This document shows, piece after piece, positions 46,863 to 60,932 of a stretch of 64,000 nt of DNA; positions within the stretch are counted from its first letter, which is position 1; the number at the start of each line of letters is the position of its first letter. Position numbers and translations under genes: made by a program. The notes beneath the pieces were generated by a model. The model did not search any database. It saw nothing but the letters and a program-made list of their open reading frames with translations, and was not told the origin of the DNA. This stretch comes from Brevibacillus humidisoli (GTDB lineage: Bacteria; Bacillota; Bacilli; Brevibacillales; Brevibacillaceae), in assembly GCF_020923435.1 (NCBI RefSeq), contig NZ_CP087263.1:4746001-4810000 (forward strand), given 5' to 3'.

Positions 46863-46969
46863 ACAGAGGAGAGGTTGCTCTGGAAGCCGCCCTGTTTCTG
46901 TCGGTCAGTAGAACGAGAAGAGAATGTGAAGGAGGAGATCAACGGTGCAGAATAAGTGGGAATCCGTAA
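46847..46969 (+). CDS. Possible 40-residue leader peptide overlapping the BCCT start
   Basis: ATG 46847 follows an excellent AGGAGGTGG and opens a 40-codon frame that ends at 46969, 25 bases inside the BCCT gene in another frame. The peptide (MKAHTNRGEVALEAALFLSV then a basic tail) matches no family I know. It could couple translation of the transporter, or be chance. Confidence 0.35.
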   Translation: MKAHTNRGEVALEAALFLSVSRTRRECEGGDQRCRISGNP

Positions 46970-48516
46970 GCAGCAAGATCGATTGGCCTGTCTTTTATAT
47001 CAGTGGAGGACTCTTGCTGCTATTTGTCATCCTTTCGCTCTTTAATGTGGAAGCGGTAACAACGTTTGTAAATACAGGTTTCGAACTTTCGATCCGTTAT
47101 TTCGGCGCGTACTGGCAGTTGCTGCTGCTGGCCACATTTGCCGTTGGGTTGGGGCTGTCTTTTTCCCGGTACGGAAGCGTGAAACTGGGGAATGTGGCTA
47201 AGCCAGAGATGAGTATGTTTAAATGGGTCGCGATTATTGTGGTATCAGGATTAGGAGCAGGGGGCGTTTTCTGGGCGGCAGCGGAGCCTATGTATTATTT
47301 CATGGATGTGCCTCCGATGCACGAGGGAATCGAGGCCAGTACGCAAGCAGCAGTAGCTCCGGCACTCGCACAAGCTTTTATGTCTTGGGGGTTTACGGCA
47401 TGGGCGGTATATGGATCAATCAGCGCGGTTATCATCATGTACGCCCACTATCATAAAGGGATGCCGTTAAAGCCTAGAACGTTGCTGTATCCGATTTTGG
47501 GGGATAGAATCCTGACGAGCAAATGGGGAACGTTCGCCGATTCCTTTTGCATTATTGGGGCGGCAGCTGGGACCATCGGGCCGATTGGTTTTCTGGGGCT
47601 GCAAGTCAGCTATGGTCTCAATTCGATTTTCGGCGTTCCAGATCATTTCATAACCCAAGCGTTGATTATCATCGGTTTGATTAGCATCACGATTGTTTCA
47701 ACAATCACCGGAATTGACAAAGGGATTCAATGGCTTAGTAAACTAAATGTATCGATGGCCATTATCATTGCGATTTTTTTGTTGATGTTTGGACCCGGTC
47801 GTTTTATTATTGATTCGTTTGTATCCTCACTTGGCTTTTATTTGAGCGAGTTTATTCACATCAGCACGTATCGTGGAGATCAAGAGTGGCTTGGCTGGTG
47901 GATGCTCTTTTTCTTTGGCTGGTTTATTGGATTTGGGCCGATGGTCGCTTTGCTGGTGGCCAGAATCTCGAGAGGACGCAGTATCAGAGAGGTGTTTTTA
48001 GCGGTTTCTGTGATCTCCTCGTTAACAACCAACTTTTGGTTTACCGTATTGGGAGGTTCGGGAATCTTTTATGAACTGAGCAATGCCGGTTCGGTAAGCG
48101 GGCCATTGCAAGAGAATGGGCTGCCGGCGGCGATCATTGCCATCGCGCAGCAAATGCCGCTCTCCGTCATCATGCCTTCTGTTTTCTTGATCTTGACGAT
48201 TCTCTTCGTCGTCACAACAGCAGACTCCATGTCCTACACGCTGGCTATGGGCGTCACGGGTGAAGGAGATCCGCCCAATGTTTTACGTGTATTCTGGGGT
48301 GTGCTGATGGGCTTTATCGCCATTATTCTGATCAATATCGGATCTGGCGGTGTTGGCGCCCTGCAATCCTTTGTCGTCATTGCGGCTGTTCCGGTCTCCC
48401 TTTTGCTACTGCCTTCCTTGTGGCATGCACCTCAGCTGGCTAAAAAGATGGCCATTGAACAAGGGATTGTTAAAACGGAGACAATGGAAGTAAAGGAAAA
48501 GGAAGTAGTCGTGTAG
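46945..48516 (+). CDS. BCCT-family transporter
   Basis: 523 residues, 12 membrane helices. The family region around helix 8 is WWMLFFFGWFIGFGPMVALL followed by VARISRGRSIREVFLAV. In glycine-betaine carriers this helix has a Trp-rich box; here two of three key Trp positions are Phe, so the substrate may not be glycine betaine. The C-terminal tail is short, without the long osmosensing extension of BetP, which suggests uptake for catabolism rather than osmoprotection. The start is GTG 46945 after GAAGGAGGAG. It is preceded by the repeat operator and a cre site. Confidence 0.92.
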   Translation: MQNKWESVSSKIDWPVFYISGGLLLLFVILSLFNVEAVTTFVNTGFELSIRYFGAYWQLLLLATFAVGLGLSFSRYGSVKLGNVAKPEMSMFKWVAIIVVSGLGAGGVFWAAAEPMYYFMDVPPMHEGIEASTQAAVAPALAQAFMSWGFTAWAVYGSISAVIIMYAHYHKGMPLKPRTLLYPILGDRILTSKWGTFADSFCIIGAAAGTIGPIGFLGLQVSYGLNSIFGVPDHFITQALIIIGLISITIVSTITGIDKGIQWLSKLNVSMAIIIAIFLLMFGPGRFIIDSFVSSLGFYLSEFIHISTYRGDQEWLGWWMLFFFGWFIGFGPMVALLVARISRGRSIREVFLAVSVISSLTTNFWFTVLGGSGIFYELSNAGSVSGPLQENGLPAAIIAIAQQMPLSVIMPSVFLILTILFVVTTADSMSYTLAMGVTGEGDPPNVLRVFWGVLMGFIAIILINIGSGGVGALQSFVVIAAVPVSLLLLPSLWHAPQLAKKMAIEQGIVKTETMEVKEKEVVV

Positions 48517-48605
48517 AAAATGCCATAGTCGGATAATGGAAAACGCAGGGATCAGTGGAATGTTTATCTTGCCTGTTGACGAAGAGGACGAGGAGTGGTG
48601 AATAG

Positions 48606-48986
48606 ATGGATCAAAAACGATTTCAAGAGGGACTTGAGGTTCGGCGTGCGGTTTTAGGCGCAGAGTATGTGGATCAATCCATTCAAAACGCGACCGACTT
48701 CAATCGTCCGATGCAGGAGTTGGTCACGGAGTATTGTTGGGGAGAGGTGTGGAGTAGGCCTGGCCTTTCCAGAAAATCGCGCAGCATGATCAATCTCGCC
48801 ATGCTGACGGCGTTAAACCGTCCGCATGAGCTGAAGCTGCATGTGCGCGGCGCCATTCAGAATGGCTTGACCAAAGAAGAGATCAGAGAAGTGTTATTGC
48901 AGACGGCGATCTACTGTGGGGTTCCTGCAGCGATTGACAGCTTTAGACTGGCACAAGAAGTGTTTCATGATTTGGACATCGAGTAA
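48606..48986 (+). CDS. Carboxymuconolactone decarboxylase-family protein
   Basis: 126 residues, close in length to PcaC (gamma-carboxymuconolactone decarboxylase). The domain runs from about residue 30: SRKSRSMINLAMLTALNRPH, then LKLHVRGAIQNGLTKEEIRE and VLLQTAIYCGVPAAIDSFRL. The CxxC of the peroxidase-like AhpD branch is absent, favouring the decarboxylase/lactone branch. It is 89 bases after the BCCT gene and probably cotranscribed. Its real substrate in this cluster is unknown. Confidence 0.85.
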   Translation: MDQKRFQEGLEVRRAVLGAEYVDQSIQNATDFNRPMQELVTEYCWGEVWSRPGLSRKSRSMINLAMLTALNRPHELKLHVRGAIQNGLTKEEIREVLLQTAIYCGVPAAIDSFRLAQEVFHDLDIE

Positions 48987-49084
48987 AGTAGTAAAGCAGT
49001 CTGGATACGGTCATGGTGTGCCAGGCTGATGATCGATGACACGGAATGAATCTGTTGATTACCGTGGGTGTACCAGCAGATCAG

Positions 49085-49109
49085 GTGCATGGTACATGGT
49101 GCATGGCAC
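49085..49109 (+). promoter_or_regulatory. ATGGTAC repeat operator, site 2
   Basis: The core GCATGGTACATGGTGCATGG differs from sites 1 and 3 by one base in the second unit. It is flanked by GT on the left and CAC on the right, making the ends GTGC/GCAC symmetrical. It ends 24 bases before the GntR start, so it probably mediates autoregulation. The rest of 48987-49133 shows no gene. Confidence 0.7.
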
Positions 49110-49133
49110 AGAAAAAGATAGAGAGGTAGGTGT

Positions 49134-49811
49134 TTGGGATTGAATCTTACTGTTTCTACTCAGAGCATTCATACACAAGTAACAAATGTGCTGCGAAACG
49201 CGATCGTATCCGGAGAGTTCGCATTGGGGGAAAAACTGTCAGAAACCGCTCTTGCACAGCGTTTGGGTGTCAGCAGGACGCCTGTCCGCGAGGCGTTGAA
49301 ACAACTGCAGCAAGAGGGGTTAGTTGAAATCATTCCACGTGTAGGTACCTGTGTTAGGAAGCCAACTGAAAAAGAGATCTTTGAATTGTTTAAAATCAAA
49401 GAATCTCTGGAAGGGCTTGCTGCAGGTTTGATGGCTGAAAGAGGAGAGATACCGGAATCGAATCAACTGGTCCAGGCGATGGAAAGCATGGAAGAAGCCG
49501 TAGAAAAGAGGGATATTGATCGGTACGTGGAAAGCAACGGGCGGTTTCATGATGCCATCCTGAGGGGGTCTGGCAACAGTAAACTGCTGTACCATTTTAA
49601 TCTGCTGATCAATCAGCTTCCCTACAAAAGATTTGTGTATATCACGTTGGATCAGCCGGATCGCCTCGAAAAATCAATCAATGAACATCGACGAATTGTA
49701 GAAGCGATCCAAGCAAGGGATACTGAATTAGCAGAAAAACTGATGAGAGAGCACGTCAAAGCGAGTGGCGACAAGTTAATCCAAGTAATGAAAGCGGAGT
49801 TGTATGGATAG
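49134..49811 (+). CDS. GntR-family (FCD/FadR type) regulator of the catabolic cluster
   Basis: 225 residues. A GntR winged helix occupies about 8-75 (VLRNAIVSGEFALGEKLSET, LAQRLGVSRTPVREALKQLQ, EGLVEIIPRVGTCV). An FCD all-helical domain follows with metal-site-like His residues (SNGRFHDAILRGSGN, NEHRRIVEAI, REHVKASGDK). It is likely a repressor released by a pathway acid. The start is TTG 49134 after GAGAGG; TTG 49140 is possible. Three repeat operators around it are its probable binding sites. Confidence 0.9.
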   Translation: MGLNLTVSTQSIHTQVTNVLRNAIVSGEFALGEKLSETALAQRLGVSRTPVREALKQLQQEGLVEIIPRVGTCVRKPTEKEIFELFKIKESLEGLAAGLMAERGEIPESNQLVQAMESMEEAVEKRDIDRYVESNGRFHDAILRGSGNSKLLYHFNLLINQLPYKRFVYITLDQPDRLEKSINEHRRIVEAIQARDTELAEKLMREHVKASGDKLIQVMKAELYG

Positions 49812-49832
49812 CGGAATATTGGCATAAACAGA

Positions 49833-49861
49833 TTGACAGGCGTAAGCAGAGTCTGTAGCAT
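49833..49861 (+). promoter_or_regulatory. Promoter of the monooxygenase operon
   Basis: TTGACA (49833-49838), 17 bases, TAGCAT (49856-49861, four of six). Operator site 3 starts 22 bases further on, the same layout as at the BCCT promoter. Confidence 0.5.
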
Positions 49862-49883
49862 TATACCCATAAACAACACTTGT

Positions 49884-49901
49884 ATGGTACATGGTACATG
49901 G
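49884..49901 (+). promoter_or_regulatory. ATGGTAC repeat operator, site 3
   Basis: ATGGTACATGGTACATGG, identical over 18 bases to site 1, 81 bases before the monooxygenase start codon. Confidence 0.7.
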
Positions 49902-49982
49902 CAGGAGATCGAGACGTCTTGTTTCAAGTAGGAGCTTATATCTCAAGTGATGATGCAGATGACAAGGGAAAGGGGTATGGAC

Positions 49983-51113
49983 ATGAAATTTGGCATATTT
50001 GCAAACTTGGCAGGCCCGGGAAGAGAGCAGGAATTTGCCAAGGTGATTGAGGAAGCAAGGGAGCAGGCCGTCTACTGTGATCAAGCTGGGTTTGACTCGA
50101 TTTGGTATACGGAGCACCATTTCGGACATGAAGGATACGAATTGATTCCCAACCCGATTTTGATGGGTGCCGATATTGCGGCTCACACCAAGAACATTCG
50201 CATCGGCCAAGCAGCCAACATCATCACCTTTTGGCATCCGCTCCGTTTGGCAGAAGATATCGCCTTGTTGGATCAGTTGAGTGGCGGTCGCGTCGATGTA
50301 GGCATCGGGCGTGGGCTCTACGGTCGGGAAGCGATGAATCTGAATCAACTGGCCGACCCGCGTGATCAGGAAAAGAACAGGGCGCTGTTTGAAGAGACTT
50401 ACGAAATCGTAAAGAAAGCGCTGTCGCAACGGTTCTTTTCCCATCAGGGAGAGTTTTACCAGTTTCCTGCGCCAGGCTTGAAGTGGAATCATCCGCTAAG
50501 CCCGCAAACGGATGAGTATATCGATATGGAAAAGGGCGAAATCAAAAAGATGTCGATCATGCCGCCGCCGCTTCAAAAGCCGCATCCTCCGCTCTGGCAG
50601 GTAATCGATACGCCGCGCTCGATCAAATGGGCAGCTGAACACCAAGTGAACGGGATCTTCTGGATGCCGACGGTAAAGGAATTGAAAATCCGCTTTGAGC
50701 TTTATCGCGAGAGCTTGTCACAAGCGAAGGGAACAGAGGCGGAATTGGGTGAAGGGCTCGCGCTTGTTCGCGATTGCTACGTGGCTGAGACGATGGAAGA
50801 AGCGCGCAGGGATGCCGAAGCTGCTGTCCTCCATACGTACCGTTGGATTTGCCACTGGCGCGGGCTGGGGAACTTGCTGGATCCGGGCGAAGAGCTGAAG
50901 CCGGGAACCGAACTGAGCTATGACTTTCTGCATCCGCGAAACCTGCTGTTCGGAACGCCGGATTATGTAGCGGAAAAAATCCAGGAACTGAAAGAAGAGC
51001 TAAACTTGAAACACTTGCTGCTCTGGACCAATCACGGCAGCTTGTCCCATGAAAAAATCATGCGCAGCACGAAGCTGTTCGCAGAAGAAGTTATGCCAAG
51101 ATTCCAATCATAA
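49983..51113 (+). CDS. LLM-class (bacterial luciferase-like) flavin-dependent monooxygenase
   Basis: 376 residues. TIM-barrel family signatures are FDSIWYTEHHF near residue 42, IRIGQAANIITFWHPLRLAE and GRVDVGIGRGLYGREAMNLN. It should use reduced FMN from a partner reductase, supplied by the gene at 54161, and oxygen to hydroxylate or open its substrate. LLM-class enzymes open pyridine-type rings in the pyr pathway of Arthrobacter and the trigonelline pathway of Acinetobacter. The ATG at 49983 is favoured by its distance from AAAGGGG; ATG 49977 is close behind that site. It is the first gene of the nine-gene run. Confidence 0.9.
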   Translation: MKFGIFANLAGPGREQEFAKVIEEAREQAVYCDQAGFDSIWYTEHHFGHEGYELIPNPILMGADIAAHTKNIRIGQAANIITFWHPLRLAEDIALLDQLSGGRVDVGIGRGLYGREAMNLNQLADPRDQEKNRALFEETYEIVKKALSQRFFSHQGEFYQFPAPGLKWNHPLSPQTDEYIDMEKGEIKKMSIMPPPLQKPHPPLWQVIDTPRSIKWAAEHQVNGIFWMPTVKELKIRFELYRESLSQAKGTEAELGEGLALVRDCYVAETMEEARRDAEAAVLHTYRWICHWRGLGNLLDPGEELKPGTELSYDFLHPRNLLFGTPDYVAEKIQELKEELNLKHLLLWTNHGSLSHEKIMRSTKLFAEEVMPRFQS

Positions 51114-51151
51114 CGTCTTTTCAGAAATAAAAGGTATGGAGGAAAAAGAGT

Positions 51152-51730
51152 ATGCTGGAAATCCGCAAAGTATATACACACGTCGAAGAAACGTTTCTCG
51201 AAGGAGGAAAAGAAGTCCGGCCATCGATCAAAAACATTGCGACGGTAGCCGTAATCAAGAATCCTTGGCATGGCAGGGGGTATGTAGAGGATCTGAAACC
51301 GGAAATTCTCGCCTGCTGTCCGGAGTTGGGAGAGCTACTGGTCAAGAAGTTATTCGAAGTGATCGGTTCAGCAGATGAAGTAGAAGCGTTCGGAAAGGCA
51401 GCGGTTGTAGGAGTGGATGGAGAGTTGGAACATGCCTCCGCGATGATCCACACCTTCCGTTTTGGCAACAAGTTCCGCGATGCTGTCGAAGGAACAAGCA
51501 TTTTATCCTTTACCAACAAGCGTGGCGGTCCAGGCACCTATGTGACCATCCCGATGGTTCACAAGACGGATGAATCCCAGCGGTCCCATTTCCTCACGTT
51601 TGAGATGAATATCCCGGATGCTCCGCGAGCGGACGAGATCGTGGTGGCGATCGGGGCGGCAACCGGAGGCAGACCCCATCCACGTATTGGCGACCGCCAT
51701 CAAGACATGGTGGAGATGGGATTGAAATAA
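51152..51730 (+). CDS. PF06684 (AA_synth, DUF1185) protein
   Basis: 192 residues of the family labelled amino acid synthesis (formerly DUF1185). Typical stretches are VAVIKNPWHGRGYVEDLKPE, GVDGELEHASAMIHTFRFGN, SFTNKRGGPGTYVTIPMVHK and the C-terminal GAATGGRPHPRIGDRHQDM. The family has solved structures but no established reaction; its members occur beside flavin monooxygenase and hydrolase genes. It is 38 bases after the monooxygenase gene and 1 base before the hydrolase gene. In this pathway it may handle a ring-opened or lactone intermediate (inference). Confidence 0.85.
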   Translation: MLEIRKVYTHVEETFLEGGKEVRPSIKNIATVAVIKNPWHGRGYVEDLKPEILACCPELGELLVKKLFEVIGSADEVEAFGKAAVVGVDGELEHASAMIHTFRFGNKFRDAVEGTSILSFTNKRGGPGTYVTIPMVHKTDESQRSHFLTFEMNIPDAPRADEIVVAIGAATGGRPHPRIGDRHQDMVEMGLK

Positions 51731-51731
51731 C

Positions 51732-52547
51732 ATGGAGCAACCGATGGCAACTTCTCCATTCACGCACTATACAGAAGCGGGAAATGGTGCCCCTGTCATT
51801 TTCATCCATGGTGTCGGTTTGGACGGAACGATTTGGAAACAGCAAGTGGAGGCGTTATCGAAAGCATACCGGGTCATCTGCTATGACATGATCGGGCATG
51901 GTCAATCGGCCTGCCCGGCCGGTCCTTACACGTTGGCACAGTTTGTGAAGCAGTTGGAAGATCTGTATGAGGAACTGGAGTTGGATCAAGCGCATGTCGT
52001 CGGTTTCTCGATGGGGGGACTGGTGGCCCAAGGCTTTGCCGCCCTGCACCCGGAAAAAGTCTCTACCTTGACGATCGTCAGCTCTGTGGCCAAACGCACC
52101 GAAGAGCAGCGTAGAGCGGTGCTTGCCCGGGTGAGAGAAGTAGAGCAACGCGGCCATCAGGCGACCATTGAAGCGGCGATTCAACGGTGGTTCAGTCCAG
52201 CGTACATGGCGAAGCATCCGCAAGTGATCGAGAGCATCCGTCACCGCTTGCGGGCCAATCATCCGGATGCCTACCTGGCCGCTTACCGCGTATTCGCCGC
52301 CGCGGATGAGGAGTTGTATCAACAATTGCCCCTCATCTCCTGCCCGGCATGGATCGTTACGGGTGAGCTGGATCGAGGGTCAACCCCTGAGATGGCGGAG
52401 CTTATGGCCAAACGGATTCCCAAGGCGGAAGTGACGGTGCTGCCGGGAATCAGGCATATGCTGCCGATCGAAGCGGCAGAGCGGTTCAATCAGCTCCTGA
52501 TTTCGGCATTCGAGAAGTACGAGGGAGAGGTGCGGAGAAATGGCTGA
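51732..52547 (+). CDS. Alpha/beta hydrolase (enol-lactonase / amidase-like)
   Basis: 271 residues. Oxyanion loop FIHGVGLDGTIW, nucleophile elbow GFSMGG, acid Asp in TGELDRGSTPEM and catalytic His in GIRHMLPIEA. It is of the PcaD (3-oxoadipate enol-lactonase) and RutD-like type. In the analogous trigonelline and pyridine pathways a hydrolase cleaves the formamide intermediate, which would be its role here by inference. It overlaps the aldehyde dehydrogenase gene by 8 bases. Confidence 0.88.
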   Translation: MEQPMATSPFTHYTEAGNGAPVIFIHGVGLDGTIWKQQVEALSKAYRVICYDMIGHGQSACPAGPYTLAQFVKQLEDLYEELELDQAHVVGFSMGGLVAQGFAALHPEKVSTLTIVSSVAKRTEEQRRAVLARVREVEQRGHQATIEAAIQRWFSPAYMAKHPQVIESIRHRLRANHPDAYLAAYRVFAAADEELYQQLPLISCPAWIVTGELDRGSTPEMAELMAKRIPKAEVTVLPGIRHMLPIEAAERFNQLLISAFEKYEGEVRRNG

Positions 52548-54024
52548 ATGGAAAAAATACCGCATGTATATCAATGGGGAATGGGTGGAAGCAAGCAGCG
52601 GCGAATACTTTGAGAGCTATAACCCGGCAGAGGGGGAGCCTTGGTGTCTCGTTGCCAAAGGTACGGAGCAAGATGTCGATCGGGCTGTACAGGCGGCACA
52701 GAAAGCCTTTGAACACCCTCGCTGGGCCTCGATGACCTATACGCAGCGCGGAAAATTATTGAGACGTCTGGGAGATTTAATCGCAGAGCGTGCAAGTGAA
52801 CTGGCTGTCTATGAGACGCTTGACAATGGCAAGCTGATTCGCGAGATGCGCGGGCAGCTGCAGTATCTACCGGAGTTTTTCTATTACTATGCCGGCTTGG
52901 CTGACAAGATTCACGGTGAGACGCTCCCGATCGACAAGCCAGATATGCTAGCGTTTACATCCCGTGAACCGCTCGGTGTAGTGGCTGCGATCACACCTTG
53001 GAACTCTCCGCTCTACCTAACAACGCTGAAGCTGGCACCAGCATTGGCGGCTGGCAATACCATCGTGATCAAGCCTTCAGAGGTTACGTCGGCATCACTG
53101 CTTGAACTGATGCCGCTGATCGAAGAAGCTGGCTTCCCGCCAGGTGTTGTCAATGTTGTAACCGGTTTCGGAGATCCGGTAGGAAGTGCCTTAACCAGTC
53201 ATCCGCTCGTTCGTCGCGTTGCCTTTACCGGTGGTCCCGAATCAGCTCGTCACGTGATCCGCAATTCAGCGGAGAACTTTGCCCGGGTCACCTTGGAACT
53301 GGGCGGGAAATCACCCAACATCGTGTTTGATGATGCGGACGCAGATAATGCCGCGATGGGGATCATCGCCGGGATTTTTGGAGCGGCCGGCCAGAGCTGT
53401 GTCGCCGGTTCAAGGGCATTTCTTCACAAGAAGATTTACGATCAGGTGCTGGAAAAAGTGGCCGACCGGGCGTCCCGCATCATCATTGGCGATCCGATGG
53501 CGGCTGAGACTGAGATGGGACCCTTGGCCACTGAAGCTCAAGTGAAAAGAATGGAGCATTATGTGAATGCTGGTCGACAGCACGGTGCTCGCCTGGTTTA
53601 TGGCGGCAAACAGCCGGAGGCCGGAGGGAGTGGCTGGTATTTTGAGCCGACCATTTTTGAACATACAGATCCCAAGAGTCCCATCGCCCAAGAGGAGATC
53701 TTCGGCCCCGTGCTTACGGTGATTCCATTCGAGACAGAAGAAGAGGCGATTGCTCTGGCCAATGGCACCAATTACGCTCTGGCAGCCGGGATCTGGACTA
53801 ATCACCTGGCAAAGGCTCATCGCGTGGCCAAATCGGTGAGGGCGGGGATCGTCTGGGTGAACACCTATCGCAGCATTTCCCCGATCGCCCCGATCGGCGG
53901 CTCCCATTGGAGCGGCTACGGACGAGAAAGCGGTTATGAGGCGATATACGAGTATACGCAGAGCAAAGTGGTCTGGGTGAATACGTCTGGCGAGCCGATG
54001 CCGGATCCGTTCATCATGCGGTAA
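52540..54024 (+). CDS. NAD(P)-dependent aldehyde dehydrogenase (first)
   Basis: 494 residues. Family sequence around the oxyanion Asn (ITPWNSPLYLTTLKLAPALA), catalytic Glu (TLELGGKSPNIVFDDAD) and catalytic Cys (AAGQSCVAGSR), and the end region GPVLTVIPFETEEEAIALAN. It oxidises an aldehyde made in the pathway to an acid; in the pyridine and trigonelline routes this step follows ring opening. Overlap with the hydrolase gene implies coupled translation. A 136-base gap with a 10-bp repeat follows. Confidence 0.92.
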   Translation: MAEWKKYRMYINGEWVEASSGEYFESYNPAEGEPWCLVAKGTEQDVDRAVQAAQKAFEHPRWASMTYTQRGKLLRRLGDLIAERASELAVYETLDNGKLIREMRGQLQYLPEFFYYYAGLADKIHGETLPIDKPDMLAFTSREPLGVVAAITPWNSPLYLTTLKLAPALAAGNTIVIKPSEVTSASLLELMPLIEEAGFPPGVVNVVTGFGDPVGSALTSHPLVRRVAFTGGPESARHVIRNSAENFARVTLELGGKSPNIVFDDADADNAAMGIIAGIFGAAGQSCVAGSRAFLHKKIYDQVLEKVADRASRIIIGDPMAAETEMGPLATEAQVKRMEHYVNAGRQHGARLVYGGKQPEAGGSGWYFEPTIFEHTDPKSPIAQEEIFGPVLTVIPFETEEEAIALANGTNYALAAGIWTNHLAKAHRVAKSVRAGIVWVNTYRSISPIAPIGGSHWSGYGRESGYEAIYEYTQSKVVWVNTSGEPMPDPFIMR

Positions 54025-54040
54025 CGGACGGAAGCGCTGG

Positions 54041-54080
54041 CTGACCGATACTGACCGATATTGACAGGTACTGGCTGATC
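54041..54080. repeat. 10-bp tandem repeat in the spacer before the FMN reductase gene
   Basis: CTGACCGATA at 54041 and 54051 is exact, then TTGACAGGTA and CTGGCTGATC are degenerate copies; TACTGACCAG-like pieces continue to about 54115. No known function. Confidence 0.55.
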
Positions 54081-54160
54081 CTCTGTTACTGACCAGTTCT
54101 TGACTGACAGCTTTGGCAGGGTTGTACCGATACAACGTTGGAAAAAGGAGAGGAATAGAA

Positions 54161-54694
54161 TTGAAGCTGCTGGCTATCTCGGGTACGATTACCGGATCAA
54201 AGACACGGGTTGTCGTGCAAAAAGTGTTGGAGGAAATCAAGCAAGCCAACCCGGAGATCGAAGCCGAAATGCTTGATTTGAAAGATTATGACGTTCAGTT
54301 TTGCGATGGGAGAGATCCGTCTACCTACACAGGGGACACGAAGAAAGTGATCGATATGGTCGCATCGGCTGATTTCTACATCATTGGGACGCCGATCTTC
54401 CAGGGCTCGATTACCGGGGCTTTGAAAAACCTGTTTGATTTGGTGCCTCCCCAAGCCTTTCGCCACAAGGTGATGGGATTTGTCGCCACCGGAGGAACGT
54501 ATCAGCATTATTTGGTCATCGAGAACCAGTTGAAGCCGATCGCCGGCTATTTCCGGGCTTTTGTTGCCCCTGGCTACGTGTATGCCCATCAGGATCATTT
54601 CAGTAAACAGAATGAATTGGTCGCCCCCGAAGTATTGGAACGCGTGTCCGATCTGGCAAAAGAATTGGTCCATATGCAGAAAGCGTTGAAATAA
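54161..54694 (+). CDS. NADPH-dependent FMN reductase (SsuE/MsuE type)
   Basis: 177 residues, flavodoxin-like fold: N-terminal LKLLAISGTITGSKTRVVVQ for the FMN phosphate, then GTPIFQGSITGALKNLFDLV and GFVATGGTYQHYLVIENQLK. It makes reduced FMN for the LLM monooxygenase as the second half of a two-component system, as SsuE does for SsuD. The start is TTG 54161, after AAAGGAGAGG; the frame upstream has no such signal. It is 27 bases before the RibB/riboflavin kinase fusion gene, so FMN making and FMN reduction are coded side by side. Confidence 0.9.
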   Translation: MKLLAISGTITGSKTRVVVQKVLEEIKQANPEIEAEMLDLKDYDVQFCDGRDPSTYTGDTKKVIDMVASADFYIIGTPIFQGSITGALKNLFDLVPPQAFRHKVMGFVATGGTYQHYLVIENQLKPIAGYFRAFVAPGYVYAHQDHFSKQNELVAPEVLERVSDLAKELVHMQKALK

Positions 54695-54721
54695 GGGGAC
54701 AGTTGAAGGGAAGGGAAAGGC

Positions 54722-55732
54722 ATGAACAACAGTAGAGTTGAACGTGGGCTTCGTGTATTGAGAGAGGGAGAATTGATTGTTCTGTTGGATGACGTTCATA
54801 CCGGGATCGGTGTCCTCGTAGGAACTGCCGAGCATGTAACTCCCAAAAAGGTGAATATGATGACCAAAGCGGGGAAAGGACTGGTTAGCGTCTGTCTGCC
54901 CGAATCAGTAGCGCAGAAGCTGGATCTTCCCTTCATGGTGGAGGACCCCATGAAACCCTTCACTCTCTCTGTAGACTACAAAACTTGTACGACTGGCATT
55001 TCCTCCTTTGAACGGGCCGAAACGATCAAAGCGTTTACGAGAGAGGATATCCGGCCAGAAGATTTTCGCAAGCCTGGGCATGTCTTCCCTCTGGCAGGAA
55101 AAGAGCACGGAATCTTGCAACGAACAGCTCTGGTAGAGGCGGTGATCGATTTGGCCAAGGAGACTTCTGCTTCGCCAGTAGGCTATGTCTGCGAGATCCT
55201 CAATCAGCAGGGAGAGATCGCATCGATCCAGGACATCGAAAAACTGGCTCGCGAATGCGGCTTCCCGGTGCTAACCGTCAGCGAGATCGTTGAGATGAGA
55301 AGAGAAGATGTGTTGTGCACGTTTGTTGGCCAGGTGATCCACGGGAAACAGATCGGTCGTAAAATTGGATTTCCGACGGCCAATCTACAGGTAGATTCAA
55401 AAGAGGGGCAACTGCCCAATGGCGTCTATGGCGTAAACGTTCACTACGATAACAGGCGATTTCTCGGGATTATGAATGTGGGGCTCAGACCGACCATTCA
55501 TCCGGAAGAAACCGCTGTTCATTACGAGGTGCATATCTTTGACTTCGATGAGACGATTTACGGCGAGAAGCTGCAAATAGAGGTCGGATTTTTTGTGCGT
55601 GAGGAACGTTCTTTTGCGACGATGCATGATCTGATTTCGCAAATCAAGAAAGATGTGGAGTTTGTCAAACATCGCCGGCATATCGCGGCAAAAGCGGAGG
55701 AAAGGCCTGCTCGCATAGGAGGAGCGGAATGA
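54722..55732 (+). CDS. Fusion of a divergent RibB-like domain and a riboflavin kinase domain
   Basis: 336 residues. Residues 1-195 follow DHBP synthase (RibB): SVCLP with Cys58, TTGISSFER, KPGHVFPL (117-124) and CE at 157-158 are kept. But the Mg/substrate loop that reads DDEDRENEGD in RibB is DDVHTGIGVL here, and the catalytic GHTEA is ALVEA (136-140). DHBP synthase activity is therefore doubtful. Residues 198-316 are a riboflavin kinase: GRKIGFPTAN, NGVYGV, NVGLRPT and the catalytic Glu in HYEVHIFDFDETIYG. No FAD synthetase domain is present, so it should make FMN. It overlaps the next gene by 4 bases. Confidence 0.88.
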   Translation: MNNSRVERGLRVLREGELIVLLDDVHTGIGVLVGTAEHVTPKKVNMMTKAGKGLVSVCLPESVAQKLDLPFMVEDPMKPFTLSVDYKTCTTGISSFERAETIKAFTREDIRPEDFRKPGHVFPLAGKEHGILQRTALVEAVIDLAKETSASPVGYVCEILNQQGEIASIQDIEKLARECGFPVLTVSEIVEMRREDVLCTFVGQVIHGKQIGRKIGFPTANLQVDSKEGQLPNGVYGVNVHYDNRRFLGIMNVGLRPTIHPEETAVHYEVHIFDFDETIYGEKLQIEVGFFVREERSFATMHDLISQIKKDVEFVKHRRHIAAKAEERPARIGGAE

Positions 55733-56043
55733 GTCAAGCGAGAGATGAGGAGATCCACTTGCCCGACTTGTGGTTTATCAACATGTGCGAGTCCCGCTAC
55801 GGCATAAATCGCGGAATATACAATACGATCGATGCCTGGTTTTTTCGACAAGGCATAAAAGATATTTTGCATCGTCGCCAAACTATTTTGTCTTTTCTCG
55901 AGTTCATGCGGAGCCAATCGGATCGCCAAGGAAACGCTCGCCGCAAGTTCGGTCCTGGTGGCTTATCGGTTAAGTTGGAAACCTACTATTCAGCCGACGC
56001 GTCGCAGGTGGGATCATCGGAGAGAATCAAGGGATGGGGGTAG
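55729..56043 (+). CDS. Unknown small protein in the catabolic operon
   Basis: 104 residues, soluble, no signal peptide. The first two thirds look well structured and aromatic-rich (LPDLWFINMCESRYGINRGI, then IDAWFFRQGIKDILHRR); the last third is polar. It overlaps the fusion gene by 4 bases (ATGA) with GGAGGAG just before, and ends 4 bases before the next dehydrogenase, so it is embedded in the operon. I recognise no family. It may be a subunit or binding protein for a neighbouring enzyme. Confidence 0.6.
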   Translation: MSQARDEEIHLPDLWFINMCESRYGINRGIYNTIDAWFFRQGIKDILHRRQTILSFLEFMRSQSDRQGNARRKFGPGGLSVKLETYYSADASQVGSSERIKGWG

Positions 56044-56047
56044 AGAG

Positions 56048-57481
56048 ATGGGAACATCGCAAAAAAGAAAGTTGTGGATCGATGGCCAATGGATACAGAC
56101 GGAGACGTATAGTTTGCTGCGTTCTCCTTATACCGGGGACGTGATCGCCGAGCTCCCTGTCGCCACCGAGAAGCAAACCGATCAGGCGATTGAAGCGGCT
56201 TACCAGGCACGCGGCAAGATGGCCAAGATGCCGGCGCACCAACGATCTGCCATTTTGTACGAACTGGCTCGTCTGTTAAAGGAAAGAGCGAACGAAGCAG
56301 CGGAGATCATCGCGCTGGAAGCGGCCAAGCCGCTAACTACTGCCAAAGCGGAAGTCGCGCGGACGATTGAGACCTATCGATTTGCTGCCGAGGAAGCCAA
56401 GCGGATTCACGGGGAATCGCTGCCGCTGGACGCAGCGCCTGGCGGAGAAGGGCGGCTCGCTTATACAACCAGAGAGCCGATTGGCGTGATCGGAGCGATT
56501 ACTCCGTTTAATTTTCCAATGAATCTGGTTGCCCATAAAGTAGGCCCGGCGATTGCCGCCGGAAATACGGTTGTGTTGAAGCCAGCTTCGCAGACGCCTC
56601 TATCCGCTTTCTTTATCGCGCATCTGCTGGAAGAGGCGGGGCTGCCAAGTGGAGCGCTAAATGTGATTACAGGCAGTGGCAGAGTAGTAGGAGACCGCAT
56701 TGTGACCGATGACCGAGTCGCTATGATCACATTTACCGGAAGCCCGGCTGTCGGGATTGGGATCCGCAATAAGGCGGGATTAAAACGAGTGACGTTGGAG
56801 TTGGGCTCCAATTCGGCGCTGATCGTGGATCGAGGGGTTGACTTGGAGAAAATCATCCCCCGCTGTGTTTCAGGAGCTTTTTCCTTTCAGGGGCAGGTAT
56901 GCATCTCGCTGCAACGGGTGTATGTGCATGAAGAGATCTATGACCAGTTCGTGGAAAAGTTCGTGGCAGAGACCAAAAAGCTGGTGATCGGCGACCCGCT
57001 TGACCCGAAGACAGAACTGTCTGCATTGATTACTCCTGGAGATGTACAGCGCTGTCTCAACTGGATTGAGGAAGCGAAGCAAGGGGGAGCGGTCGTCGCT
57101 GCGGGCGGTACGGCAGAAGGAAATGTCCTGCTTCCGACCGTGCTGCTGAAAGCAGATGCTGCCCTAAGCGTTTCCTGCCAGGAAGTGTTCGCTCCCATCG
57201 TATTGATCAATAAGGTATCGTCCGCCCAGGAAGCGATTGACCTCGTAAACGACTCACGCTTTGGGCTGCAAGCAGGGATCTATACCGAAAACGTTCACCT
57301 GGCGTTGACAGCAGCGGAACAACTGCACGTCGGGGGTGTGTTGATCAACGACATCCCTACATTCCGCGTGGACCATATGCCATACGGCGGGGTGAAGGAG
57401 AGCGGAGTCGGTCGAGAGGGACTCAAGTATGCGGTGGAAGAAATGACGGAATTGAAGTTGGTCATCTGGAACCGAAACTGA
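56048..57481 (+). CDS. NAD(P)-dependent aldehyde dehydrogenase (second)
   Basis: 477 residues starting at ATG 56048 (MGTSQKRKLW) after GGGGGTAGAGAG. Motifs: ITPFNFPMNLVAHKVGPAIA, catalytic Glu in LELGSNSALIV, catalytic Cys in FQGQVCISLQRV, and EVFAPIVLINKVSS. The ELGSN variant is seen in lactaldehyde- and semialdehyde-type dehydrogenases. It probably takes the last aldehyde of the route, such as a succinate-semialdehyde-like compound, into central metabolism (inference). YciI-like gene follows after 25 bases. Confidence 0.9.
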   Translation: MGTSQKRKLWIDGQWIQTETYSLLRSPYTGDVIAELPVATEKQTDQAIEAAYQARGKMAKMPAHQRSAILYELARLLKERANEAAEIIALEAAKPLTTAKAEVARTIETYRFAAEEAKRIHGESLPLDAAPGGEGRLAYTTREPIGVIGAITPFNFPMNLVAHKVGPAIAAGNTVVLKPASQTPLSAFFIAHLLEEAGLPSGALNVITGSGRVVGDRIVTDDRVAMITFTGSPAVGIGIRNKAGLKRVTLELGSNSALIVDRGVDLEKIIPRCVSGAFSFQGQVCISLQRVYVHEEIYDQFVEKFVAETKKLVIGDPLDPKTELSALITPGDVQRCLNWIEEAKQGGAVVAAGGTAEGNVLLPTVLLKADAALSVSCQEVFAPIVLINKVSSAQEAIDLVNDSRFGLQAGIYTENVHLALTAAEQLHVGGVLINDIPTFRVDHMPYGGVKESGVGREGLKYAVEEMTELKLVIWNRN

Positions 57482-59431: not shown

Positions 59432-60724
<1,293 letters not shown>

Positions 60725-60780: not shown

Positions 60781-60803
60781 TCGCACACGAGTCCGGTCGC
60801 ACG

Positions 60804-60907
60804 TTCATCTCTCAGAATCCACTGATTCTGCAGGAATTAGCACCTTGCATGTCGCCATGCCGGTTGCTGGGCTTCATAGGGCCAGTCCCTCCGCCGCTCT
60901 GGATGAA
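60804..60907 (-). promoter_or_regulatory. SAM-I (S-box) riboswitch aptamer
   Basis: Reading the minus strand, the S-box order is plain: CATCCAGAGCGGCGGAGGGA, then CTGGCCCTATGAAGCCCAGC and AACCGGC, then AAGGTGCTAATTCCTGCAG and a hairpin. The aptamer closes with a P1 helix TTCATC/GATGAA at 60902-60907 and 60804-60809. It senses S-adenosylmethionine and controls metY. Confidence 0.95.
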
Positions 60908-60932
60908 AACTTTTTTTCTTTTGTATTTTCAC

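Follow-up and report, generated by a model that had tools for sequence, protein, structure and literature searches.

The window, i.e., the whole 64,000-nucleotide stretch of Brevibacillus humidisoli DNA analyzed here, contains a co-directional gene cluster in the order GntR, LLM, AA_synth, alpha/beta hydrolase, aldehyde dehydrogenase, FMN reductase, RibB*-kinase, RibR-C, and aldehyde dehydrogenase; no gap between them exceeds 135 bp. Here, RibB* denotes the family of RibB-fold domains without catalytic residues, RibR-C denotes homologues of the C-terminal half of Bacillus subtilis RibR, and residue numbers follow the host's own RibBA unless stated otherwise. The features are as follows:

46945–48516, plus strand: BCCT transporter, upstream of the cluster (PF02028)
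49134–49811, plus strand: GntR/FCD regulator, first gene of the cluster (domain matches)
49947–51113, plus strand: luciferase-like (LLM) monooxygenase (PF00296)
51152–51730, plus strand: AA_synth protein (PF06684)
51732–52547, plus strand: alpha/beta hydrolase (domain matches)
52540–54024, plus strand: aldehyde dehydrogenase (domain matches)
54155–54694, plus strand: FMN reductase, MsuE/SsuE-like (domain matches)
54722–55306, plus strand: RibB* domain, fusion residues 1–195, metal/catalytic loop residues and catalytic His missing (PF00926, residue table, AlphaFold model)
55313–55669, plus strand: riboflavin kinase domain, fusion residues 198–316, motifs intact (PF01687, alignment of fusions and stand-alone kinases)
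55729–56043, plus strand: RibR-C, 104 amino acids, homologue of the C-terminal half of B. subtilis RibR
56048–57481, plus strand: second aldehyde dehydrogenase, 4 bp after RibR-C (domain match)

The FMN reductase gene ends 27 bp and the LLM gene about 3.6 kb upstream of the fusion gene in the same co-directional cluster, in agreement with the first-pass annotation, which had placed an FMN reductase and an FMN-dependent monooxygenase next to it. An FMN reductase also lies near the kinase/RibR-C genes in L062, L064, L065, L067, L068, and L069 (64–81% identity), and the BCCT transporter also neighbors L096/L068, L103, and other loci. The cluster from the BCCT transporter to the second aldehyde dehydrogenase (46945–57481) recurs elsewhere, AA_synth being found in 23/80 loci (the best 80 of 199 RibR-C relatives), and it is present in Staphylococcus xylosus as well (L136). 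Two catabolic assignments were considered and dropped: a riboflavin-catabolism cluster (rca genes) gave no match in the literature search, and searches for trigonelline- or homarine-like catabolism yielded no support; the gene set may be reminiscent of such N-heterocycle breakdown, which we treat as a lead only. Elsewhere in the window, a SAM riboswitch (60802–60909, minus strand, 89 bits) precedes the minus-strand gene of a Cys/Met metabolism PLP-dependent enzyme (59432–60721, PF01053).

The fusion is encoded by the ORF at 54722–55732 (plus strand, 336 amino acids). Its residues 10–191 match Pfam DHBP_synthase (PF00926, E = 6.1e-53) and its residues 200–316 match Pfam Flavokinase (PF01687, E = 4.8e-36), both over the cut-off; Pfam gave no FAD_syn match in the protein, and the NCBIfam ribB and ribF equivalogs match it with scores far below their own cut-offs. 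Among PDB sequences, the first half matches entries of RibB/RibBA, and the second matches mainly those of riboflavin kinase/RibF. In the alignment with other fusions and stand-alone kinases, the kinase half carries GFPTANL, NGVYGV, MNVG.RPT, YEVH, and YGE, which we take to be the conserved riboflavin kinase motifs. An AlphaFold model of the fusion has a mean pLDDT of 85.6 (input alignment of 22 rows, 10 of which cover the kinase only), and Foldseek matches its first half to RibB crystal structures, e.g., 4ffj with the highest TM-score by target (0.90) at 2.1 Å; judged by this model, the RibB half keeps the DHBP-synthase fold. The first-pass annotation had read the protein as a RibB-derived N-terminal half joined to a complete riboflavin kinase without an FAD synthetase half, had called this architecture non-standard, and had proposed an overlay of a predicted structure on RibB; the domain matches, the motifs, and the overlay all agree with that reading, i.e., a RibB-fold domain without catalytic residues is joined to a riboflavin kinase. 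An artefact or frameshift is ruled out by a 61% identical fusion in an Ammoniphilus genome (G197) and by fusions in four further genera.

The residues of 13 RibB* (window included) were compared with those of 57 ordinary RibBs from kin genomes. In the alignment, DDEDRENEGD of host RibBA reads DDVH-TGIGV in the window, one residue shorter, and RRAGHTEA reads QRTALVEA. E24, R26, E27 (the metal ligand column), D31, and H141 are lost in 13/13 RibB* and kept in 57/57 ordinary RibBs; the H141 column is aliphatic in all 13, and the E29 column holds Glu in 2/13 and Asp in 1/13. The loss of the DRENEGD loop and of the active-site His, noted earlier for the fusion with the caveat that equivalent acidic or His residues might lie elsewhere in the fold, is thus seen throughout the 13 sequences, none of the lost columns having a substitute acid or His conserved across them. 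In V. cholerae RibB, Glu39, Glu41, and His154 are catalytic, with mutants cited for activity loss, and Thr108/Asp114 are written with primes, which is taken here to mean residues of the other subunit (PMC5228156). From the aligned motifs, the former three correspond to E27, E29, and H141, and their equivalents are all absent from the window fusion; Thr108/Asp114 correspond to T95/E101, both positions being kept in 13/13 RibB*.

Much else of the domain is conserved. D22, D23, T95–S98, E101, R102, P122–H124, F126, P127, and E143 are kept in 13/13 RibB*, R138 in 6/13, and T142 in 1/13. New residues have also become fixed: all 11 closer RibB* carry C58 and K78 (window numbering) in place of the Pro and Thr of 57/57 RibBs, Y155 and S187 are present in 10/11 of these RibB*, and the RibB Thr82 column is Lys or Arg in 13/13. 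A 14th copy, on plasmid L217 and outside the 13-sequence counts, has Ile for the His, Asp for E143, and a longer loop. On these alignments, the catalytic loss is a family trait of RibB* and not one accident, and the sequence supports a RibB half that is non-catalytic for DHBP. Because motifs kept in 13/13 and new residues invariant in the 11 closer RibB* stand beside the catalytic loss, RibB* looks repurposed, not merely decaying.

The host genome (4.9 Mb) holds one other RibB-family match, i.e., the RibBA of ribD-ribE-ribBA-ribH, which keeps all catalytic residues; this rules out that the fusion replaces a lost host RibBA. The host RibF has both the FAD-synthetase and the kinase domain, and the fusion kinase half is 48% identical to it; RibB* and RibBA are 35–46% identical. 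The only FMN riboswitch found in the host (leader at C1:328316–328461) precedes an ECF S-component gene that is RibU-like (riboflavin importer) and 36% identical to the riboswitch-linked gene in L209 of genome G436; none was found before the host rib operon. A riboswitch inside the cluster was also looked for, and none reached the gathering score in the window or in seven RibB* loci. In G197 and G167, the single FMN riboswitch found precedes rib genes. Another genome of the host's family, G027, gave no RibB match (fusion query, E 0.001; RibB* profile, 1e-48) and has an FMN riboswitch ahead of a RibU-like gene (L211); it is perhaps a riboflavin auxotroph relying on import.

The RibR-C gene overlaps the fusion gene by 4 bp (ATGA) and has an AGGAGG ribosome-binding site at 55717–55722. 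Its product is 43% identical to residues 135–221 of B. subtilis RibR (E = 7.8e-21) and scores 122 bits with the RibR-C profile; no Pfam or NCBIfam family matched it. The B. subtilis RibR sequence used as the query is 100% identical over 230/230 residues to a protein in G436. Its gene there adjoins two LLM genes, a gene of the M20 peptidase family, and genes for an ABC transporter of the amino-acid type. The window RibR-C has 15 K/R and 12 D/E, i.e., it is not strongly basic, and it is predicted to be all-helical (pLDDT 82.7). No PDB structure matches this model, and a known RNA-binding fold was rejected on that ground, so RNA binding by RibR-C is proposed here from its homology to RibR. Reviews describe RibR as an RNA-binding protein whose N-terminal part is a kinase and whose C terminus resembles no protein of known function; it seems to interfere with the working of FMN riboswitches and is part of a transcription unit concerned with the uptake and degradation of sulfur (PMC7693651; PMC9863419, the latter from 2023).

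An alignment scan for RibR-C over genome contigs (84,980 species by the collection's description) gave 199 relatives. The best 80 were analyzed with flanks of up to 10 kb, some of which stop at contig ends, and were classed by profile matches to a kinase within 1.2 kb and to RibB* within 2.5 kb of RibR-C. Among these best 80 of 199, 47 have neither kinase nor RibB* nearby, 21 have a separate kinase (partial matches in L095 and L100), 3 have the kinase fused to RibR-C as in RibR, 4 have a RibB*-kinase fusion, 2 have a separate RibB* and a separate kinase, 2 have RibB* without a kinase, and 1 has RibB* fused directly to RibR-C without a kinase (L101, Paenibacillus validus). Anywhere in the locus, RibB* occurs in 11/80 and is absent from 69/80; in L098 and L123 its distance to RibR-C is 4.5 and 2.6 kb, and it lies on the opposite side. 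LLM genes are found in 65/80 of these loci, flavin reductase genes in 54/80, and either in 72/80 (tblastn, 1e-5); as a density control, five genomes of about 26 Mb together hold 34 LLM genes.

The search for further fusions of RibB and flavokinase, which the first-pass annotation had proposed, found them in the window, L071 (Ectobacillus), L096 (Ammoniphilus), L099 (P. xerothermodurans), L103 (Alkalihalobacillus), and L123 (Peribacillus kribbensis). Single chains of kinase and RibR-C, i.e., the RibR form, are seen in L082, L090, L125, and L062, and RibB*, kinase, and RibR-C are three separate neighbors in L093 and L118. Please note that not all loci are independent: L096 is the locus of G197, L118 is that of G167, and L105 and L111 are near-identical. 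The order RibB*, kinase, RibR-C is the same in all seven three-way adjacent cases (window, L071, L096, L099, L103, L093, and L118), and the fusions therefore look like joins of neighboring genes. The general idea of the first-pass annotation, i.e., a RibB domain put to another purpose together with a dedicated FMN supply, fits these results, but that annotation had overlooked the RibR-C gene next door and its shuffling with the other domains; with both included, the other purpose narrows towards RibR-type control of flavin supply.

RibB* was also surveyed without RibR-C as the anchor. Among 39 genomes of the host's GTDB family (host included), a full-length fusion match occurs only in the host; across 398 genomes of the class, in a first search in which 30 places with loci and L070 were inspected one by one, the fusion query found RibB* in G197 (two places), G167, and the window. 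With the RibB* profile, these four places score 290–311 bits and none of the other listed places exceeds 226, a gap that is partly by construction because the profile was built from sequences including all four. The three places outside the window first surfaced with the fusion query, before RibR-C entered the analysis. RibR-C occurs in 31/398 class genomes, including all three RibB* genomes, and three of the four RibB* places are directly beside RibR-C or one gene off. The fourth, L070 (G197:C1), has the kinase followed by RibB* with no RibR-C nearby, the sole RibR-C match of this genome being on another contig. An LLM gene lies within 10 kb at 4/4 RibB* places, and the three RibB* genomes (G000, G197, and G167) hold just 4, 9, and 6 LLM genes.

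In an independent plasmid collection, a Peribacillus frigoritolerans plasmid (L217) carries LLM, lactonase-like, RibB*, and kinase genes in this order, with RibR-C, a second kinase, and a flavin reductase 7–9 kb away. Database names are misleading here, since a plasmid RibB* is listed as a DHBP synthase (WP_048689270.1) and a RibR-C as a hypothetical protein (WP_065421230.1). On a plasmid of Peribacillus sp. R9-11 (L218, 8968–9935), RibB*, intact in L217, is split into two annotated ORFs. RibA remnants were tested in six longer unfused RibB*: those of L217, L111, and L105 beat all 1000 shuffles and that of L118 is marginal (4/1000 as good), and in L093 and L098 remnants found no support (634 and 618 of 1000 shuffles equally good). 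From the remnants in L217, L105, L111, and marginally L118, RibB* is probably a former RibBA. In the quick tree, a single origin of RibB* takes one change, but the support is 69 and long branches meet, so a single origin is at most tentative.

Compared with known systems, the window locus shares with B. subtilis RibR a kinase without an FAD synthetase half (46% identical), a RibR-C beside it, and the LLM neighborhood; RibR, however, is one chain without a RibB-like domain, whereas RibR-C in the window is a separate overlapping gene. With RibB/RibBA the fusion shares the fold and the identity given above, but its metal/catalytic loop residues are gone, and so is the catalytic His. Its second half, by flavokinase domain and conserved motifs, belongs with the riboflavin kinases and is homologous to the kinase half of RibF, the host RibF differing by its FAD synthetase half. 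RibBX of A. baumannii (PDB 6mnz), the model's top Foldseek hit by E-value, likewise combines a RibB fold with a second C-terminal domain, presumably not a kinase, but the entry is titled DHBP synthase. Arabidopsis RIBA3 is a RibBA relative that has lost DHBPS activity and retained GTP cyclohydrolase II activity (PMC3509567); it resembles the fusion in its inactive RibB half, and the passages of that paper on RIBA3 describe no kinase half. The titles and abstract openings listed in a search of mostly open literature contained no RibB-riboflavin kinase fusion. On sequence grounds, we file the locus as a variant of the RibR kind: it is not RibR proper because kinase and RibR-C are not one chain, and not a DHBP synthase because the catalytic residues are missing.

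Pairs of LLM monooxygenase and FMN reductase create a demand for FMN, and RibR is reported to interfere with riboswitches. Our best explanation, to which we give a probability of roughly 0.6, is that the locus is a RibR-type module for FMN supply and riboswitch override in a catabolic operon, with the non-catalytic RibB* as a platform or sensor. It builds on the domains, lost residues, RibR-C homology, gene order, and fusions, all of which are read from the sequences. The host catabolic operon would be built on a two-component FMN monooxygenase; once it is on, the kinase half, which we infer to be active, would convert riboflavin to the FMN that the reductase and the monooxygenase need. RibR-C, translated together with the fusion and probably complexed with it, would interact with an FMN riboswitch and thereby override it, i.e., riboflavin import (or synthesis) would stay on despite FMN rising during catabolism. 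The target in the host would be the riboswitch ahead of the RibU-like importer, the only one found. RibB* would make no DHBP; we hypothesize that this decayed RibBA paralogue survives as a domain that is non-catalytic and probably dimeric, and that may hold kinase and RibR-C together or may sense a phosphorylated ligand or the housekeeping RibBA. In line with a dimeric platform or sensor, RibB* keeps the motif taken as contacting the partner subunit in RibB. Several observations weigh against the RibR-type module: RibR and most RibR-C loci do without RibB* (69 of the best 80 of 199), 47 of these 80 RibR-C genes have no close kinase or RibB*, one of the four class-survey RibB* places (L070) is kinase-first without RibR-C nearby, RibB* is distant and on the other side in L098/L123, RibR-C lacks a strongly basic character and no solved fold fits its model, and no riboswitch was found before the host rib operon. 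A wider version, in which a complex acting against riboswitches across Bacilli contains RibB* as a pseudoenzyme subunit that, with kinase and RibR-C, senses the state of the flavin pathway and overrides FMN riboswitches to the benefit of catabolic operons that depend on flavin, is tentative and in our view rather doubtful.

It may instead be that RibB* modulates the housekeeping RibBA, with mixed dimers raising or lowering DHBP production and the kinase only making FMN. In favor of this, the active site sits where the subunits touch and RibB* retains the motif taken to serve the partner's site, the host RibBA is normal (that of G197 shares 71% identity with it across the 219 residues covered), and the RibA remnants point to descent from RibBA; however, identities of just 35–46% between RibB* and RibBA, together with the RibB*-RibR-C fusion in L101, which would be left unexplained, make this unlikely. 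A different reaction, or metal-free binding of a sugar phosphate or flavin phosphate, would agree with the many pocket motifs kept and with Lys/Arg at the RibB Thr82 column in 13/13, but no alternative catalytic constellation was found in RibB*, all 13 have an aliphatic residue at H141 and lack the metal ligand E27, and R138 and T142 remain in 6/13 and 1/13 only, so we consider it quite improbable.

That RibB* is merely a decaying RibBA paralogue carried along by a useful kinase seems to us very improbable. The decayed or lost RibA half, the long branches, and the split copy on L218 speak for decay, but open frames are retained in several genera, new residues are invariant, the model has a RibB fold, and RibB* has been fused and shuffled repeatedly. 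RibR is an unusual case, i.e., a protein reported to interfere with a riboswitch. Here, its C-terminal half is seen to form a gene family of its own (199 relatives in the scan) with a kinase and a dead RibB shuffled around it, so that the sufficiency of RibR-C by itself and the contributions of the kinase and RibB* become open to experiment.

Two minor observations concern the surroundings of RibB* and related clusters. In Ammoniphilus resinae, group II intron RNA domains and two reverse-transcriptase-like ORFs lie beside RibB*/kinase/RibR-C (L118, 11736–15509; L069, 14219–17429). Rfam BsrG sRNA matches lie near two RibB* clusters (L103, 13840–14104, 85 bits; L118, 16920–17198, 93 bits).
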